DNA of 64,000 bases from Verrucosispora sp. NA02020. GTDB taxonomy: Bacteria; Actinomycetota; Actinomycetes; Mycobacteriales; Micromonosporaceae. This document shows, in pieces, positions 23,978-61,533 of this stretch. Below the pieces are notes generated by a model. The model searched no databases. It was not told where the DNA came from and saw only the letters and a program-made list of their open reading frames with translations. Both the position numbers and the translations under genes were made by a program. Each line of letters opens with the position of its first letter. Within the stretch, counting starts at the first letter, position 1. The DNA lies in NCBI RefSeq assembly GCF_013364215.1, contig NZ_CP054923.1, forward strand, positions 6,262,001-6,326,000, written 5' to 3'.

Positions 23978-24796
23978 GTGTCCGCGACCCCACTGCTGGA
24001 GCTACGCGGGATCGACAAGAGCTTCGGTCCCGTCCAGGTCCTGCGCGACGTCGCCTTCGCCGCCTACCCGGGCGAGGTGACCGCGCTCGTCGGCGACAAC
24101 GGCGCCGGCAAGTCGACCCTGGTCAAGTGCATCAGCGGCATCTACCCCACCGACTCCGGGGAGTTCGTCTTCGACGGCCGCCCGGTGCACATCAACAGCC
24201 CCCGCGACGCCGCCTCGCTCGGCATCGAGGTCGTCTACCAGGACCTCGCGCTCTGCGACAACCTCGACATCGTGCAGAACATGTTCCTCGGGCGGGAGAA
24301 GCGCAGCGGCATCGTCCTGGACGAGCCGACGATGGAGCAGATGGCCGCGGAGACCCTCGCCGGGCTCTCCGTACGCACCGTCAAGTCGCTGCGCCAGCAC
24401 GTCTCCAGCCTCTCCGGCGGCCAGCGCCAGACCGTGGCGATCGCCAAGGCGGTGCTCTGGAACAGCAAGCTGGTGATCCTGGACGAGCCGACCGCCGCGC
24501 TCGGCGTCGCACAGACCGCCCAGGTGCTCGAACTGGTCCGCCGGCTGGCCGACAACGGTCTGGCCGTGGTGCTCATCTCGCACAACATGAACGACGTCTT
24601 CGCCGTCTCCGACCGGATCGCCGCGCTCTATCTCGGCCAGATGGTCGCCCAGGTGAGGACCACCGACATCACGCACTCGCAGATCGTCGAACTGATCACC
24701 GCAGGCCGTTCCGGCGGGCTCGGGCTCGCCACCGAACCGGCCACCAACGGCAACGGTGGAGCACCCGCCAGCAGCAACACAGGAGGGCTGGCATGA
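23978..24796 (+). CDS. Sugar ABC transporter ATP-binding protein, XylG-like (single domain)
   Basis: A 272-residue ATPase: Walker A GDNGAGKST, signature LSGGQRQ, Walker B LVILDEPTAALG and the switch His in VVLISHNMNDV. Unlike XylG or RbsA of enterics, which have two fused nucleotide-binding domains, this protein has one, as in the FrcA-type subgroup. The GTG start follows AAGGAG by six bases. Its stop overlaps, as ATGA, the start of a 24-codon reading frame from the repeat cassette that separates it from the permease gene. Confidence 0.9.
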   Translation: MSATPLLELRGIDKSFGPVQVLRDVAFAAYPGEVTALVGDNGAGKSTLVKCISGIYPTDSGEFVFDGRPVHINSPRDAASLGIEVVYQDLALCDNLDIVQNMFLGREKRSGIVLDEPTMEQMAAETLAGLSVRTVKSLRQHVSSLSGGQRQTVAIAKAVLWNSKLVILDEPTAALGVAQTAQVLELVRRLADNGLAVVLISHNMNDVFAVSDRIAALYLGQMVAQVRTTDITHSQIVELITAGRSGGLGLATEPATNGNGGAPASSNTGGLA

Positions 24797-24867
24797 GCGA
24801 GCCGCAGCGAGCGAATCATCAACTCCGGGCCGAGGCCGGCCCGCAGCGCAGCGGAGGGTCGGCATGA
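24793..24867 (+). CDS. 24-residue peptide of the ATGA coupling cassette (copy A)
   Basis: An open frame of 24 codons begins MSEPQRANHQL and ends PQRSGGSA. Its ATG overlaps the ATPase stop (ATGA) and its TGA overlaps the permease start (ATGA). The native AGGAGGG of the junction precedes it, and the cassette supplies a new GGAGGG five bases before the permease ATG. It is related to two cassettes at 55982-56145 by the shared MSE.QRAN start and the RSG near the end. Whether the peptide is stable is unknown. Confidence 0.7.
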   Translation: MSEPQRANHQLRAEAGPQRSGGSA

Positions 24868-53762: not shown

Positions 53763-55985
53763 ATGACAGACGGTGCACGGTCGGCGACTCGATCGGGGGA
53801 AACACCCCGGGAGGTGGCGACGCACTGCCCGTACTGCGCACTCCAGTGCGGGATGACCCTGCGCCAGGACGAGGACCGGATCTCCGTACACCCCCGGGAC
53901 TTCCCCACCAACCGGGGCGGCCTCTGCCAGAAGGGCTGGACCTCCGCCGAACTGCTCGACCACCCCGACCGGCTGACCACCCCGCTGCTGCGCGACCCGG
54001 CCACCGGCCGACTCGCACCGGCGAGCTGGGAGGCGGCGCTGGACCGCATCGTCACCGGGCTGGGCGAGGTACAGCAGCGGCACGGCCGCGACGCCGTCGC
54101 CGTCTTCGGCGGCGGCGGGCTCACCAACGAGAAGGCGTACGCACTGGGCAAGTTCGCCCGCGTGGCGCTGCGTACCCGACACATCGACTACAACGGACGG
54201 TTCTGCATGTCCTCGGCCGCCGCAGCCGGGATGCGGGCCTTCGGCGTCGACCGGGGACTGCCGTTCCCGCTCGCCGACCTGGGCCGGGCGGACACCCTGC
54301 TGCTGGTCGGCGCGAACCCGGCCGAGACGATGCCACCGCTGGTGCGCTGGCTCACCGAACAGCGGGAACGCGGCGGCACGCTGATCGTGGTCGACCCGCG
54401 CGCCACCGCCACCGCCCGGCAGGCCGACCTGCACCTGCAACCCCTGCCCGGCACCGACCTGGCGGTGGCCAACGCACTGCTGCACACCGTGCTGACCGAG
54501 GGCTACGTCGACGGGTCGTACGTCGCCACCCGCACCAACGGTTTCACCGACGTACGCCGTACCGTGGCGGGCTGGTGGCCGGCTCGGGCCGAGGCGCTAT
54601 CCGGCGTACCCGTGGCCGACCTGGAGGCGACGGCCCGCGCCCTCGGCACCGCCGAACGGGCGATCATCCTCACCGCCCGGGGCGCCGAACAGCACGCCAA
54701 GGGCGTCGACACGGTCACCGCCTTCGTCAACCTGGCGCTCGCCCTCGGCCTGCCCGGCCGGCCCGGCTCCGGGTACGGCTGCCTGACCGGGCAGGGCAAC
54801 GGCCAGGGCGGCCGGGAGCACGGGCAGAAGGCCGACCAGCTACCCGGGTACCGCAGGATCGACGATCCGGCGGCCCGGGCACACGTCGCGGAGGTCTGGG
54901 GCGTACCCGCGGACGAGCTGCCCGGTCCGGGCGTGCCGGCGTACCGGTTACTGGACTCACTGGGCACCGCGGACGGACCCCGGGCGTTGCTGGTCTTCGG
55001 CTCCAACCCGGTGGTCTCCGCACCGCGCGCGGCCCGGATCGAGAGCCGGCTGCGCGACCTGGACCTGCTCGTCGTCGCCGACTTCCTGCTCTCCGAGACC
55101 GCCGCGCTGGCCGACGTGGTGCTGCCCACGGCGCAGTGGGCCGAGGAGGACGGCACCTTGACCAACCTGGAGGGACGGGTGCTGCGCCGACGCGCGCTCC
55201 GCCCCCCGCCGACCGGTGTCCGCACCGACCTCGCCATCCTCGCCGCCATCGAGGACCTTCTGAAAGGAAGGGCCCCTTCCTATCGCCTCGTGCATAGCAA
55301 GGGTCCCCTCCTAACACCCGGCGCGGACGCGAGCGACGACGCGGGAGCGGGTGTGCCGGAGGCCGATCCGCAGGCGGTGTTCGAGGAACTGCGGCGGGCC
55401 TCGGCGGGCGGGCTCGCCGACTACGCCGGCATCAGTTGGGACCGCATCGACGAGGCGGACGGGGTGTTCTGGCCCTGCCCACGCAGCGACGGGCCGGACT
55501 CGCCCCGACTCTTCGCGGACCGCTTCGCCACCCCGGACGGGCTGGCCCGGTTCCACCCGGTGGAGCACCGGCCGGCGGCCGAGGAGGTCTGTCCGGAGTA
55601 CCCGCTGCACTTCACCACCGGCCGGGTACTCGCCCAATACCAGTCCGGCACACAGACCCGGCGGGTGGCGGCGCTGCGCCGGGCCGCCCCCGACGCGTTC
55701 GTGGAGCTGCACCCGGATCTGGCCGATCGGCTCGGGGTGGCCGACGGCGAACCGATCCGGGTGGTCTCCCGGCGAGGCGAGTTCCGGGCGCCTGCCCGGC
55801 TGAGTCCGGCGATCCGGCCGGACACCGTCTTCGCGCCGTTCCACTGGGCCGGCGCGGCACGGGCCAACTCCGTCACCAACGACGCGGTCGACCCGATCTC
55901 CGGCATGCCCGAGTTCAAGATCTGCGCCGTCCGCCTGGAGAAGGTCGCACCAGGCGACGCGGAGCGCAGCGGAGTGTTGCCATGA
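53763..55985 (+). CDS. nasA: Assimilatory nitrate reductase catalytic subunit
   Basis: A 740-residue molybdopterin enzyme reducing nitrate to nitrite in the cytoplasm. The N-terminal [4Fe-4S] site is THCPYCALQCGM with GGLCQKG; the Mo-ligand Cys is in YNGRFCMSSAAAAG; the C-terminal Mo-cofactor domain starts near residue 610 (LHFTTGRVLAQYQSGTQTRR). Two foreign pieces are fused in: a 54-bp palindromic repeat (residues about 500-518) between the end of the main domain (AILAAIEDLL) and VFEELRRASAGG, and the last ten residues (GDAERSGVLP), which come from a coupling cassette. No ribosome site precedes the ATG. Confidence 0.92.
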   Translation: MTDGARSATRSGETPREVATHCPYCALQCGMTLRQDEDRISVHPRDFPTNRGGLCQKGWTSAELLDHPDRLTTPLLRDPATGRLAPASWEAALDRIVTGLGEVQQRHGRDAVAVFGGGGLTNEKAYALGKFARVALRTRHIDYNGRFCMSSAAAAGMRAFGVDRGLPFPLADLGRADTLLLVGANPAETMPPLVRWLTEQRERGGTLIVVDPRATATARQADLHLQPLPGTDLAVANALLHTVLTEGYVDGSYVATRTNGFTDVRRTVAGWWPARAEALSGVPVADLEATARALGTAERAIILTARGAEQHAKGVDTVTAFVNLALALGLPGRPGSGYGCLTGQGNGQGGREHGQKADQLPGYRRIDDPAARAHVAEVWGVPADELPGPGVPAYRLLDSLGTADGPRALLVFGSNPVVSAPRAARIESRLRDLDLLVVADFLLSETAALADVVLPTAQWAEEDGTLTNLEGRVLRRRALRPPPTGVRTDLAILAAIEDLLKGRAPSYRLVHSKGPLLTPGADASDDAGAGVPEADPQAVFEELRRASAGGLADYAGISWDRIDEADGVFWPCPRSDGPDSPRLFADRFATPDGLARFHPVEHRPAAEEVCPEYPLHFTTGRVLAQYQSGTQTRRVAALRRAAPDAFVELHPDLADRLGVADGEPIRVVSRRGEFRAPARLSPAIRPDTVFAPFHWAGAARANSVTNDAVDPISGMPEFKICAVRLEKVAPGDAERSGVLP
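55262..55315 (+). repeat. 54-bp palindromic element inside nasA
   Basis: Same length and layout as the copies at 13584 and 21582. It is read in a different frame from the methyltransferase copy and yields LKGRAPSYRLVHSKGPLLT. Element base 2 is A instead of T and base 22 is T instead of A; with the other copy's bases this frame would contain TAA at positions 2-4 and 20-22. Confidence 0.9.
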
Positions 55986-56065
55986 GCGAGCACCAGCGAG
56001 CGAATCAGCACCACAGCGCGGACAAGCCTCATGGCGACACGGAGCGCAGCGGAGTGACGGCATGA
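55982..56065 (+). CDS. 27-residue cassette peptide (copy B1)
   Basis: Open frame starting MSEHQRANQHHSADKPHG and ending DTERSGVTA. The ATG overlaps the nasA stop and its TGA overlaps the next cassette's ATG. A GGAG supplied by the cassette remnant at the end of nasA precedes it. Rich in charged and polar residues; function unknown, possibly only a by-product of translational coupling. Confidence 0.65.
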   Translation: MSEHQRANQHHSADKPHGDTERSGVTA

Positions 56066-56145
56066 GCGAGCGCCAGCGAGCGAATCAGCAGCACAGTGCG
56101 GACAAGCCTCATGGCGACGCGGAGCGCAGCGGAGTGTTGCCATGA
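56062..56145 (+). CDS. 27-residue cassette peptide (copy B2)
   Basis: Open frame starting MSERQRANQQHSADKPHG and ending DAERSGVLP. It differs from copy B1 at only a few residues. Both ends are ATGA overlaps, the last with the nasB start. Its terminal ten residues are the same as those at the end of NasA. Confidence 0.65.
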   Translation: MSERQRANQQHSADKPHGDAERSGVLP

Positions 56146-57581
56146 GCGGCGATCGGGTGGTCGTGGTCGGCAACGGGATGGCCGGTGCCCGGTTGGCGAG
56201 CGAGCTGCGCGGGCGGGGCGGGGACCTCAAGGTCACCGTGCTCGGCGCGGAGCCGCATCGGGCGTACAACCGGATCATGTTGTCGACGCTGCTCACCGGC
56301 AAGATCAGCGAGCTGGACGTGGAGTTGGCGGAGGCGGCCGGGCGGGGGGTCGACGTCCGCACCGGGGTCACCGTCCGGGCCGTCGACCGGGCCGCCCGGG
56401 AGGTACGCACCGACGACGGCGACCGGATCCGTTACGACCATCTGGTGCTCGCCACGGGTGCGCGGGCGGTCGTGCCGCCGTTGCCCGGTCTCGATGCGGC
56501 CCACCTGCCGGACCGGGTGGTCGCGTTCCGCACGCTGGACGACTGCCGACGCATCATCGCGACGGCCCGGGGTGCCCGGCGGGCGCTGGTGCTCGGGGGC
56601 GGGCTACTCGGCCTGGAGGCGGCCCGGGGGCTCGCCGCCCGGGGGCTCGGCGTCGCGGTGGTGCACCGGGTGCCGTACCTGATGGAGCGGCAGCTCGACG
56701 CCGTGGCCGCCACGATGCTGGCCGGTACGCTCGCCGACCTGGGGGTGACCACCCATCTGGCCGTCACGCCGACGGCGCTCGCGGCCGACGCCTCCGGGGT
56801 ACGCCTGGAGCTGTCCGACGGCCGGTGCCTCGACGCCGACCTGCTGGTGCTCGCCTGCGGGGTACGCCCGGAGACCGCCCTGGCCGAGGCGGCCGGACTG
56901 GCGGTGGACCGGGGTGTGCGGGTCGACGACCGACTGCGGACCGGCGATCCACGGGTCTCGGCGATCGGCGACTGCGCGCAGCACGGCTCCGCGCCGACGG
57001 GGCTGGTGGCACCGGCCTGGGCGCAGGCCCGGGTGGTCGCACACCTGCTGACCGGCGAGGATCCGTCGGCCCGGTACCGGCCCCGGCCGGTGGTGACCCG
57101 GCTCAAGGCGGCCGGCATCGACCTAGCCTCGATGGGCGACCCGACCGGCGGCCCGGGCGAGGAGCTGACCTTCGCCGACCCGGCCCGTGGCACGTACGCC
57201 CGGTTGCGGATCCACGACGAGCGGCTGGCCGGCGCGATCCTGCTCGGCGACAACCCGTCGGTGGGCACCGTCGTCCAGTTGTTCGACCGGGGTCAACCGG
57301 TCCCCGCCGACCGACGGGCGCTGCTGCTGGGCCGGTCGCTCGGTGGTGCGGTCGCGGCTCCGGCCGCCTCCCCGGCGTTGATGCCGGACGCGGCCACGGT
57401 GTGTCAGTGCAACACGGTCAGCAAGGGCGCGCTGGTGGCCTGCTGGCGCGGCGGAGCCCGGACCGTCGACGAGGTCGTCGCCCGGACCAGGGCCGGGACC
57501 GGCTGCGGCGGTTGCCGCGACGCGGTCGCCGGCATCGTCGACTGGTTGTCCAGATCGGATCCGGTGGAGGTGGGACGATGA
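56142..57581 (+). CDS. nasB: FAD/NAD(P)-dependent reductase, NasB-like nitrate reductase partner
   Basis: A 479-residue flavoprotein: FAD fold VVVVGNGMAGARLASELRG, NAD fold RRALVLGGGLLGLEAARGLA, IGDCAQHG, then a C-terminal BFD-type [2Fe-2S] domain (VCQCNTVSKGAL, then GTGCGGCRDAV). It probably supplies NAD(P)H electrons to NasA. It is homologous to the N-terminal half of the adjacent NirB. Its end overlaps nirB as ATGA. Confidence 0.82.
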   Translation: MSGDRVVVVGNGMAGARLASELRGRGGDLKVTVLGAEPHRAYNRIMLSTLLTGKISELDVELAEAAGRGVDVRTGVTVRAVDRAAREVRTDDGDRIRYDHLVLATGARAVVPPLPGLDAAHLPDRVVAFRTLDDCRRIIATARGARRALVLGGGLLGLEAARGLAARGLGVAVVHRVPYLMERQLDAVAATMLAGTLADLGVTTHLAVTPTALAADASGVRLELSDGRCLDADLLVLACGVRPETALAEAAGLAVDRGVRVDDRLRTGDPRVSAIGDCAQHGSAPTGLVAPAWAQARVVAHLLTGEDPSARYRPRPVVTRLKAAGIDLASMGDPTGGPGEELTFADPARGTYARLRIHDERLAGAILLGDNPSVGTVVQLFDRGQPVPADRRALLLGRSLGGAVAAPAASPALMPDAATVCQCNTVSKGALVACWRGGARTVDEVVARTRAGTGCGGCRDAVAGIVDWLSRSDPVEVGR

Positions 57582-60444: not shown

Positions 60445-61533
60445 ATGGGCGAGGAACTGGCCGGCTTCACCATCGGGGTGACCGCCGACCGACGGCGGGA
60501 CGAACTCGCCGCGCTACTGCAACGGCGCGGTGCCCGGGTGGTGCTCGCTCCCGCCCTGCGGATCGTGCCGCTCGCCGACGACACCGAGTTGCGCGAGGCG
60601 ACCCGTACCTGCCTCGACCGGCCACCGGACGTGTTGATGGCCAACACCGGGATCGGCATGCGCGGGTGGCTGGAGGCGGCCGAGGGCTGGGGCCTGGCCG
60701 AGCCGCTGCGCTCCGTGCTCGGCGGCGCGTACGTGGTGGCCCGGGGGCCGAAGGCCCGGGGGGCGATCCGCGCCGCCGGGCTGCACGACCAGTGGTCCCC
60801 GGAGTCGGAGAGCTGCGACGAGGTGGTGGACCACCTGCGTCGGCGGGGAGTCGCCGGGCAGGTGATCGCCATGCAGTTGCACGGCGAGCGGCAACCGGAG
60901 TGCACCCGCGCTCTGGAGGACGCCGGTGCCACGGTCATCGAGATCCCGGTCTACCGGTGGGCCCCGCCGACCGACCCGGCCCCGCTGCACCGGCTGGTCG
61001 ACCTGGTGGCCAGCCGGTTGGTGGACGCGGTCACGTTCACCTCGGCACCGGCCGCGGAGGCGTTGCTGCGGGCCGCCGGTGACCGGACGGAGACGGTGCT
61101 GGAGGCCCTGCGCGGTGACGTGCTGGCCAGTTGCGTCGGCCCGGTCACCGCCGAGCCGCTGGTACGCCGGGGCGTGCCGGTGAGCGCGCCGAGCCGGGCG
61201 AGGTTGGGTGCGCTGGTCCGCACCATCGTCGACGAGTTGCCCCGCCGGACGGTCACCATCAAGGCCGCCGGACACCTGCTCACGTTGCGGGGCCACGCGG
61301 CGGTGATGGACGGTGACCTGAGACCGCTGGCCCCGGCACCGATGGCGGTGCTGCGGGCACTGGCCCAGACACCGGGTCGGGTGCTGTCGCGTACCGCCCT
61401 GCTGCGGACCCTGCCGCGTGGCGCCGACGAGCACGCGGTGGAGATGGCGGTGGCCCGGCTCCGGGCCGGGCTGAAGGCCCCCCGGGTGGTGCAGACGGTC
61501 GTCAAACGCGGGTACCGACTCCGGGTCGACTGA
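60445..61533 (+). CDS. nnaR: HemD-winged-helix fusion, NnaR-like nitrate/nitrite regulator
   Basis: A 362-residue protein: residues 1 to about 255 form a uroporphyrinogen-III synthase (HemD) fold (MANTGIGMRGWLEAAEGW, VTFTSAPAAEALLRAAG). The last about 95 residues are an OmpR/PhoB-type winged helix (LAQTPGRVLSRTALLRTLP, then VVKRGYRLRVD). The same architecture in Streptomyces is NnaR, a co-activator of nitrate/nitrite genes with GlnR. It may sense a tetrapyrrole or feed siroheme to NirB. Assignment rests on architecture and context. Confidence 0.85.
   Translation: MGEELAGFTIGVTADRRRDELAALLQRRGARVVLAPALRIVPLADDTELREATRTCLDRPPDVLMANTGIGMRGWLEAAEGWGLAEPLRSVLGGAYVVARGPKARGAIRAAGLHDQWSPESESCDEVVDHLRRRGVAGQVIAMQLHGERQPECTRALEDAGATVIEIPVYRWAPPTDPAPLHRLVDLVASRLVDAVTFTSAPAAEALLRAAGDRTETVLEALRGDVLASCVGPVTAEPLVRRGVPVSAPSRARLGALVRTIVDELPRRTVTIKAAGHLLTLRGHAAVMDGDLRPLAPAPMAVLRALAQTPGRVLSRTALLRTLPRGADEHAVEMAVARLRAGLKAPRVVQTVVKRGYRLRVD

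Follow-up and report, generated by a model that had tools for sequence, protein, structure and literature searches.

In a 64,000-nucleotide stretch of Verrucosispora sp. NA02020 DNA (contig NZ_CP054923.1, forward-strand positions 6,262,001 to 6,326,000; hereafter the window, whose own numbering is used below), a nasA-like and a nasB-like gene are separated by an array of 80-bp units. This array is most probably one insertion of a small, apparently non-autonomous repeat that is dispersed at DTGA start codons, that is of the same kind as the mycobacterial interspersed repetitive units (MIRUs), and that would hand ribosomes on to the gene behind it.

The tandem array that an earlier note had described between the two genes was confirmed by Tandem Repeats Finder (TRF), which reported a repeat at 55953-56148 with a period of 80, 2.5 copies and a score of 343; since the leading copy is only a tail, however, the complete ATGA-to-ATGA units number two. 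All features of the array lie on the plus strand. The nasA-like gene (53763..55985), which encodes a 740-residue assimilatory nitrate reductase catalytic subunit (Pfam Molybdopterin, Molydop_binding and Molybdop_Fe4S4; best NCBIfam match NasC, below cut-off), is fused in frame to the 3' half of a unit (55938..55981; direct repeat D2; GGAG at 55971-55974), so that its C-terminal residues GDAERSGVLP are unit tail. This partial unit matches positions 37-84 of R1, a sequence-only model that we built from 42 units, with an E value of 5.2e-5. It is followed by unit 1 (55982..56061), unit 2 (56062..56141) and the nasB-like gene (56142..57581), whose start is the last ATGA and whose product is a 479-residue FAD/BFD electron-transfer subunit (Pfam Pyr_redox_2 and Fer2_BFD; NirB N-terminal-like, below cut-off). 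The nas gene names derive from these Pfam domains and from the NCBIfam matches below cut-off. In keeping with the earlier description, both complete units are 80 bp long, begin with ATGA, contain a 27-residue open reading frame (ORF) whose TGA lies within the next ATGA (55982-56065, MSEHQRANQHHSADKPHGDTERSGVTA; 56062-56145, MSERQRANQQHSADKPHGDAERSGVLP), and carry their own GGAG 7 nt 5' of the next ATG (56051-56054 and 56131-56134).

The units belong to a family spread over the whole genome. In the 7.28-Mb genome of the window, R1 returned 72 matches at E<1e-3, distributed over 43 sites with 1-3 matches per site (150 candidates scored). The curated set comprised 37 sites and 63 units; L073, L086 and L107 entered it by eye, and L107 is doubtful. 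Unit lengths were 80 bp (n = 35), 71 (14), 74 (6), 77 (2), 65 (2), and 68, 62, 50 and 81 (1 each). The arithmetic put forward for the window units, in which a length of 2 modulo 3 restores the stop/start overlap, held in 62 of the 63 (eight lengths, 50-80 bp), and in 62 of 63 units the stop of the ORF coincided exactly with the DTGA that follows. The sole exception, an 81-bp unit at L098, consists of two merged units whose 54-codon ORF still ends on the DTGA of the gene. Units were bounded by ATGA at both ends, as had been claimed, and seldom by GTGA; their 5' halves were of the GAGCGAATCATC type, and their peptides measured 17-27 residues. At 29 loci of relatives that had played no part in building the model, 34 units were parsed, of which 33 had lengths of 2 modulo 3 and 32 an ORF ending on the next DTGA; 3 of these loci were mis-parsed and appeared regular by eye.

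We then asked what the arrays lead to. Under a loose rule, 69 of the 72 matches led, in sense orientation, to a long gene-like ORF. Because the control for this rule was weak (a long ORF followed 415 of 859 control DTGAs too), a stricter score combining length and codon composition was applied, by which the array end was a gene start in 36 of 37 arrays, compared with 71 of 507 other ATGAs of the same loci. On the left side, 36 of 65 sites (36 own and 29 from relatives) began on the stop codon of an upstream gene, 18 were preceded by a Shine-Dalgarno (SD)-like sequence, 9 by TANNNT and 2 by neither; the SD-like class is a loose pattern without control and includes L075 and L090, two sites with a unit tail as left flank. 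TANNNT lay 4-9 nt before the ATG at its 9 sites and at none of the 36 coupled sites. This arrangement has the look of leaderless promoters and genes, and a unit can thus apparently initiate without a ribosome site. The TANNNT-preceded units are those at L239, L241, L243-L247, L258 and, in the own genome, L098. Although most copies did lie at stop/start junctions and had the expected ends, at 13 of the 37 own sites, by the criterion used here, the first DTGA did not coincide with the end of a gene upstream. The siting rule is therefore start codons, and the restriction to operon junctions that had been proposed describes only the 36 sites that begin on an upstream stop.

The right end of the arrays shared a suffix with the bases 5' of the target ATGA that averaged 2.68 nt, compared with 1.86 after permutation (57 of 62 sites; the left flank of the 5 omitted sites is a unit tail). 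A target duplication longer than ATGA was considered on this basis and rejected: the suffix exceeded permutation, yet some of the retained left flanks (L075, L083 and L240) also resemble old unit tails, and we claim target duplication for ATGA only.

It is unlikely that insertion was untargeted, with copies landing anywhere and surviving only at start codons in the coupled frame. The frame rule does resemble the outcome of selection, insertions within genes would be lost, and part of the start-codon bias may indeed be selective. Intergenic copies of either orientation should, however, be neutral under such a scheme, yet 69 of 72 matches stood in sense orientation to a gene-like ORF by the loose rule, two more nearly did, and 36 of 37 arrays ended at gene starts.

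A second shared property of the units is a hairpin that can cover the start codon behind them. The final 33 nt of a unit, together with the ATGA that comes after, can fold into a 12-bp stem whose consensus arms, TCATGGCGGCAC and GTGCCGGCATGA, contain one mismatch and enclose a 13-nt loop, GGAGCGNAGCGGA, placing the GGAG at the 3' edge of the loop and the start codon in the stem. In the window, the predicted hairpin of unit 1 (56028..56066, plus strand; arms 56028-56040 and 56054-56066; inverted repeat I2, 85% complementary) spans the next ATGAG with its stem, while that of unit 2 (56109..56145, plus strand; arms 56109-56120 and 56134-56145; overlapped by inverted repeat I4) forms 12 of 12 pairs and holds the ATGA of nasB. 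In the inverted repeats of the window array, an internal arm is complementary to the ATGAG junctions, and no pairing of the unit ends, as in the terminal inverted repeats of miniature inverted-repeat transposable elements (MITEs), was found there.

Across 42 aligned units, 85.3% of stem cells were paired, compared with 81.2% after shuffling, cells changed on both sides numbered 20 compared with 8.1, and the covariation score was 0.187 compared with 0.120. Each of these values was attained by 0 of 500 shuffles, and two further measures by 7 and 2; covariation was examined on the seven inner pairs alone as well as on the 12-pair stem. Sliding the stem partner out of register reduced pairing to 24-52%. 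Unit by unit, the hairpin reached P<0.05 against shuffled interiors in 30 of 37 own units and 26 of 26 from relatives (56 of 63 genus units), and an inner TCAT or TCGT paired all four start-codon bases in 47 of the 63 (26 own, 21 from relatives). The outer two pairs were lost in some 71-bp units.

This inner pairing also invites an explanation by single-strand transposition, in which the TCAT of the hairpin would guide the unit to its ATGA target and a host HUH enzyme would move it in trans. In IS200/IS605 insertion sequences and in repetitive extragenic palindromes (REPs) with their associated transposases (REP/RAYT), an end hairpin stands beside a tetranucleotide target and an internal stretch pairs with that target. 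The resemblance is one of layout only, with no enzyme linked to units of the window family. Such a mechanism would fit the complete pairing of the start-codon bases seen in 47 of 63 units and the lack of MITE-type terminal inverted repeats in the window array; translation explains the same hairpin, however, and the guide analogy is drawn from general background, so that we hold this route to be improbable.

The family was present in 38 of 39 genomes of the window's genus, with 0-86 matches per genome at E<=1e-5 (116 candidates scored in each) and the maximum of 86 in genome G005. In a scan of the phylum with strict filters, 4 of 296 genomes matched (15 candidates scored per genome), namely the own genome, G012 of the same genus and two genomes of g3, a genus of another family in the same order, where ORFs follow 80-bp units that are likewise bounded by ATGA. 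In another genus of the order, the loci L203, L206, L209, L214, L218 and L220 (G294) and L204 (G110) hold a sister family, whose units are mostly 80 bp long, have a 5' end of the same kind (ATGAGCGAGCGCAGCGAGCGAA) and show covariation in their 3' hairpin. The hairpin reached P<0.05 in 5 of 6 units of g3, in the 1 unit of G110 and in 0 of 2 units of g2, another genus of the same family as g3; the g3 arms change together (TCGTGAC/GTCATGA, TCGTGCT/AGCATGA), and the g2 units have lost the outer two pairs. Genus g2, which we take to be Mycobacterium in the wide sense from the PE and PPE proteins of G210, gave 7 weak matches in 6 of 39 genomes. Three of these rows, at two sites, show the architecture: a triple array of identical 65-bp ATGA-to-ATGA units at L236/L237 and a single such unit at L232. 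The rows L233, L234 and L235 look like chance, and L231 is a 5'-half-like stretch without DTGA ends. The 65-bp DTGA units at these two sites are no more than suggestive of MIRU kin. The family to which the window's host is assigned differs from that of g2, and the occurrence in mycobacteria that defines MIRUs does not apply to the window family. A mycobacterial-type pattern was found in 0 of 3 genomes searched (M. celatum, M. fragae and a Gordonia), and the unit had no match among the plasmid and phage records searched.

Filled and empty versions of the same junction were compared at four places, own genome included, with the best 30 loci of 41-61 genomes taken for each. The earlier note had expected sister strains to carry 0, 1 or more units, and orthologous sites did hold 0-3. 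At nasA/nasB (30 loci), where the own genome has two 80-bp units, single 80-bp units were present in L123 and L124 and a partial unit in L113; 24 loci were without any box, mostly with a direct overlap such as GTGGAGAAGGC running into ATGACC, and L118 and L119 were flagged through one doubtful box. At trpB/trpA, the own genome has units of 80 and 74 bp and a tail fused to TrpB, and single units were found in L142 (77 bp, by eye, not flagged by the script), L148 (80 bp) and L156 (89 bp); at the other loci no unit was recognised, though short DTGA steps of 5, 8 or 47 nt do occur among them. At nuoM/nuoN, three own 80-bp units correspond to one in L174 (by eye; unresolved by the script) and to steps of 44 and 110 in L188, with 11 of 30 loci scored empty and 8 left unresolved by the script. 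At trpC/trpB, the own genome has two units, L165 and L168 have single unit-like copies, and 26 loci were scored empty; the second-family flag of L151, like the labels of L118, L119 and L183, depends on one box and is doubtful. One unit in some genomes corresponded to two in others before apparently the same gene (L255/L260/L262, L249/L251/L259, L253/L263), the pairing being judged by flank and ORF length and not by alignment.

A different family also uses the nuoM/nuoN start codon: L184 and L192 have its 59-bp units, as does L183, though there they form no clean chain. These DTGA-bounded repeats of about 59-60 bp (GTGAGCGCGAGGA..CCCGCAGTCGCGAACGAA..) likewise lie at start codons, at L084 (G000:C1, about 5422808-5422882), L085 (about 5430768-5430843) and L102 (about 6836135) in the own genome and at L183, L184, L186, L192 and L196 in relatives.

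Units within an array were more alike than units of different arrays (pairwise identity 0.920 compared with 0.757), and 7 of 31 within-array pairs were identical, indicating clear local tandem duplication. That duplication, together with right ends that at times copy the bases 5' of the target ATGA as recombination tracts would, could be read as a sign that the units are old repeats that do not move and owe their spread solely to gene conversion and unequal crossing-over from one start region to another. We consider this quite improbable, as the 1-86 matches across the positive genomes of one genus and the clean empty counterparts suggest dispersal to unrelated genes.

The frame of the unit ORF was kept, while its peptide mostly was not. 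The two subtypes, MSERQRANH.. and MSERSERII.., are of equal length and are related by a one-base insertion and a one-base deletion, with the frame shifting and then shifting back. Diversity at codon positions 1/2/3 was, for the middle and the 3' part respectively, 0.226/0.274/0.231 and 0.167/0.130/0.099 in one subtype and 0.250/0.256/0.234 and 0.222/0.106/0.120 in the other; an excess at third positions was absent from the middle and 3' parts of both. The first few codons are conserved. Judged from these alignments, what the units conserve is mainly a reading frame that stays open up to the start codon behind it, and a functional peptide was dropped as an explanation in view of the compensating frameshifts and of the missing third-position excess in the middle and 3' parts; the conserved peptide sequence expected of a leader peptide was not found. 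It is accordingly very unlikely that the units are upstream ORFs kept because their peptide or hairpin regulates the next gene, since the downstream genes are diverse (nas, trp, nuo and others), the same junctions are unit-free in most surveyed loci and the frameshifts and codon-position pattern oppose a selected peptide, even though the units sit 5' of genes, the SD edge and start codon lie within the hairpin, and the length of a tandem repeat upstream of M. tuberculosis fpg1 tracked its mRNA level according to PMC2734929.

The preferred explanation, insertion of a MIRU-like repeat at start codons, would work as follows. A ribosome would begin at the start codon of the first unit, whether coupled to the translation of a preceding gene, guided by an SD sequence or initiating in leaderless fashion, would translate the 17-27-residue peptide while melting the hairpin, and would stop on the TGA and restart at the overlapping ATG. 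The downstream gene would still be translated, roughly in proportion to the former initiation at that start. Translational coupling is known to involve such parts: a hairpin that masks the SD edge and the start codon, an ORF that passes through this hairpin, and a stop that overlaps a start. As the hairpin covers the next start codon, most ribosomes reading the gene may be ones that have come through the unit. Insertion at a start codon would be nearly harmless under this scheme, so that the repeat, which we infer to be mobile, could persist and multiply, with the unit peptide as a by-product.

Several observations weigh against this explanation. Apart from the frequency with which long ORFs follow control DTGAs, the three matches that fell outside the loose rule comprise two (L070) just under the limit for GC content at third codon positions and one (L223) that leads to no gene. 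Only 24 of 29 ends in relatives passed the downstream rule, the failures being one extra short DTGA step ahead of the gene (L244, L246, L264) or mis-parsed units (L238, L257). Twelve units had two candidate ends, of which one was picked by hand, namely the ATG after the consensus end of the family, which is also the coupled one. L183 and all trpC/trpB loci, in which TrpC ends upstream, yielded no stop/start chain, and the extreme 5' end of the units (columns 5-12) was most variable at third positions (0.19, 0.33). As for the hairpin, two of the 12 stem positions were often unpaired (24/42 and 14/42), 11 of the 37 own units left at least one of the four DTGA bases unpaired, a single g3 unit of the six failed and the g2 units missed P<0.05 (0.056, 0.063). 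Kinship among sequences can inflate the shuffle control, and the units from relatives were the top model hits. The fold stability of the two window units did not exceed that of shuffles (z -0.47 and +1.05), and the case for the hairpin is therefore positional and comparative. Finally, no mobility enzyme, circle or recent jump was seen, although no dedicated enzyme search was made. The epithet "self-propagating" that the earlier note had used is not upheld, as no transposase or autonomous copy turned up, though none was sought systematically; nor did a longer element with the same ends turn up in the searches made, none of which was aimed at one.

MIRUs have the same orientation as the flanking gene, and Supply et al. 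in 1997 reportedly proposed their spread into DTGA sites; we know of no start-codon hairpin described for them. PMC12548453, which cites that 1997 paper, presents mycobacterial MIRUs as repeats that seem to be mobile, that have start codons as their insertion points and that contain an ORF coupled at -4 nt, so that the remark in the earlier note that no description of such an element was known is not supported. PMC2734929 gives them as 40-100 bp long and present at 41 places in H37Rv, 12 of them polymorphic in copy number, and terms their function poorly understood and MIRUs tuberculosis typing markers; PMC4213456 places 77-bp MIRUs between senX3 and regX3. The window family agrees with MIRUs in size (50-81 bp compared with the 40-100 bp stated in PMC2734929), in its tens of dispersed loci, some tandem and of variable copy number (43 sites; 0-3 units at orthologous sites), in start-codon insertion with a 4-nt ORF overlap (62/63 units; 36/37 arrays at gene starts), and in sense orientation (69/72 matches by rule, 2 just below and 1 not; 36/37 arrays). 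It differs in its host family and in its main lengths of 80, 71, 74 and 77 bp, the comparison being with the published description of MIRUs. Enterobacterial RU-1/2/3 are likewise small and dispersed and contain ORFs, but they are MITE-like, 103-168 bp long and intergenic, and the accessible text of PMC2759123 does not mention a start-codon rule. A literature search that included Micromonospora, Salinispora and Nocardia, with subscription papers mostly outside its scope, found no description of such repeats outside mycobacteria and no occurrence of the unit or peptide strings. Within that literature, the family in the window's genus, the empty sites, the compensating frameshifts, the covarying start-codon hairpin and the second family at the same start codon are new. 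The window family represents an element of the MIRU kind beyond the mycobacteria, and a genus that bears PE and PPE proteins contains relatives of it that match weakly.

Elsewhere in the window, a lone 71-bp unit of the family (24793..24863, plus strand; locus L092; R1 match) occupies another gene junction, and at 57578 nasB and nirB, within the nas operon, overlap by an ATGA that holds no unit, a comparable but vacant site. Genes near nasA and nasB encode a NarK-type transporter and a NirB of full length, each scoring above its NCBIfam cut-off. Downstream of the nitrite reductase genes, a Uroporphyrinogen-III synthase (HEM4) domain is joined to a DNA-binding Trans_reg_C domain (60445-61533); this protein is perhaps a regulator of the nas operon. 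Pieces of units have become protein ends at window 55938-55981, L084, L105 and L074, as in the C-termini of NasA (GDAERSGVLP) and TrpB (GSERSGAAA) and the N-terminus of a gene at L074, and at L105 a unit tail precedes what by eye appears to be a urease-like gene.

It is plausible, if short of probable, that MIRUs represent a single branch within an ancient class of start-codon insertions extending across the order, each with its own ORF, ribosome site and start-locking hairpin and with the gene read through the element, in which the ATGA-pairing arm may also guide single-strand transposition; two unlike families, of 80 and 59 bp, do occur at one nuoM/nuoN start within a single genus. The finding also carries a warning for annotation, in that 17-27-residue "proteins" beginning MSERQRANH.. 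or MSERSERII.., as well as certain gene ends, are element sequence. With a copy-rich family of the MIRU kind in another genus of free-living type, at sites both empty and filled, mobility and ribosome hand-off become testable.

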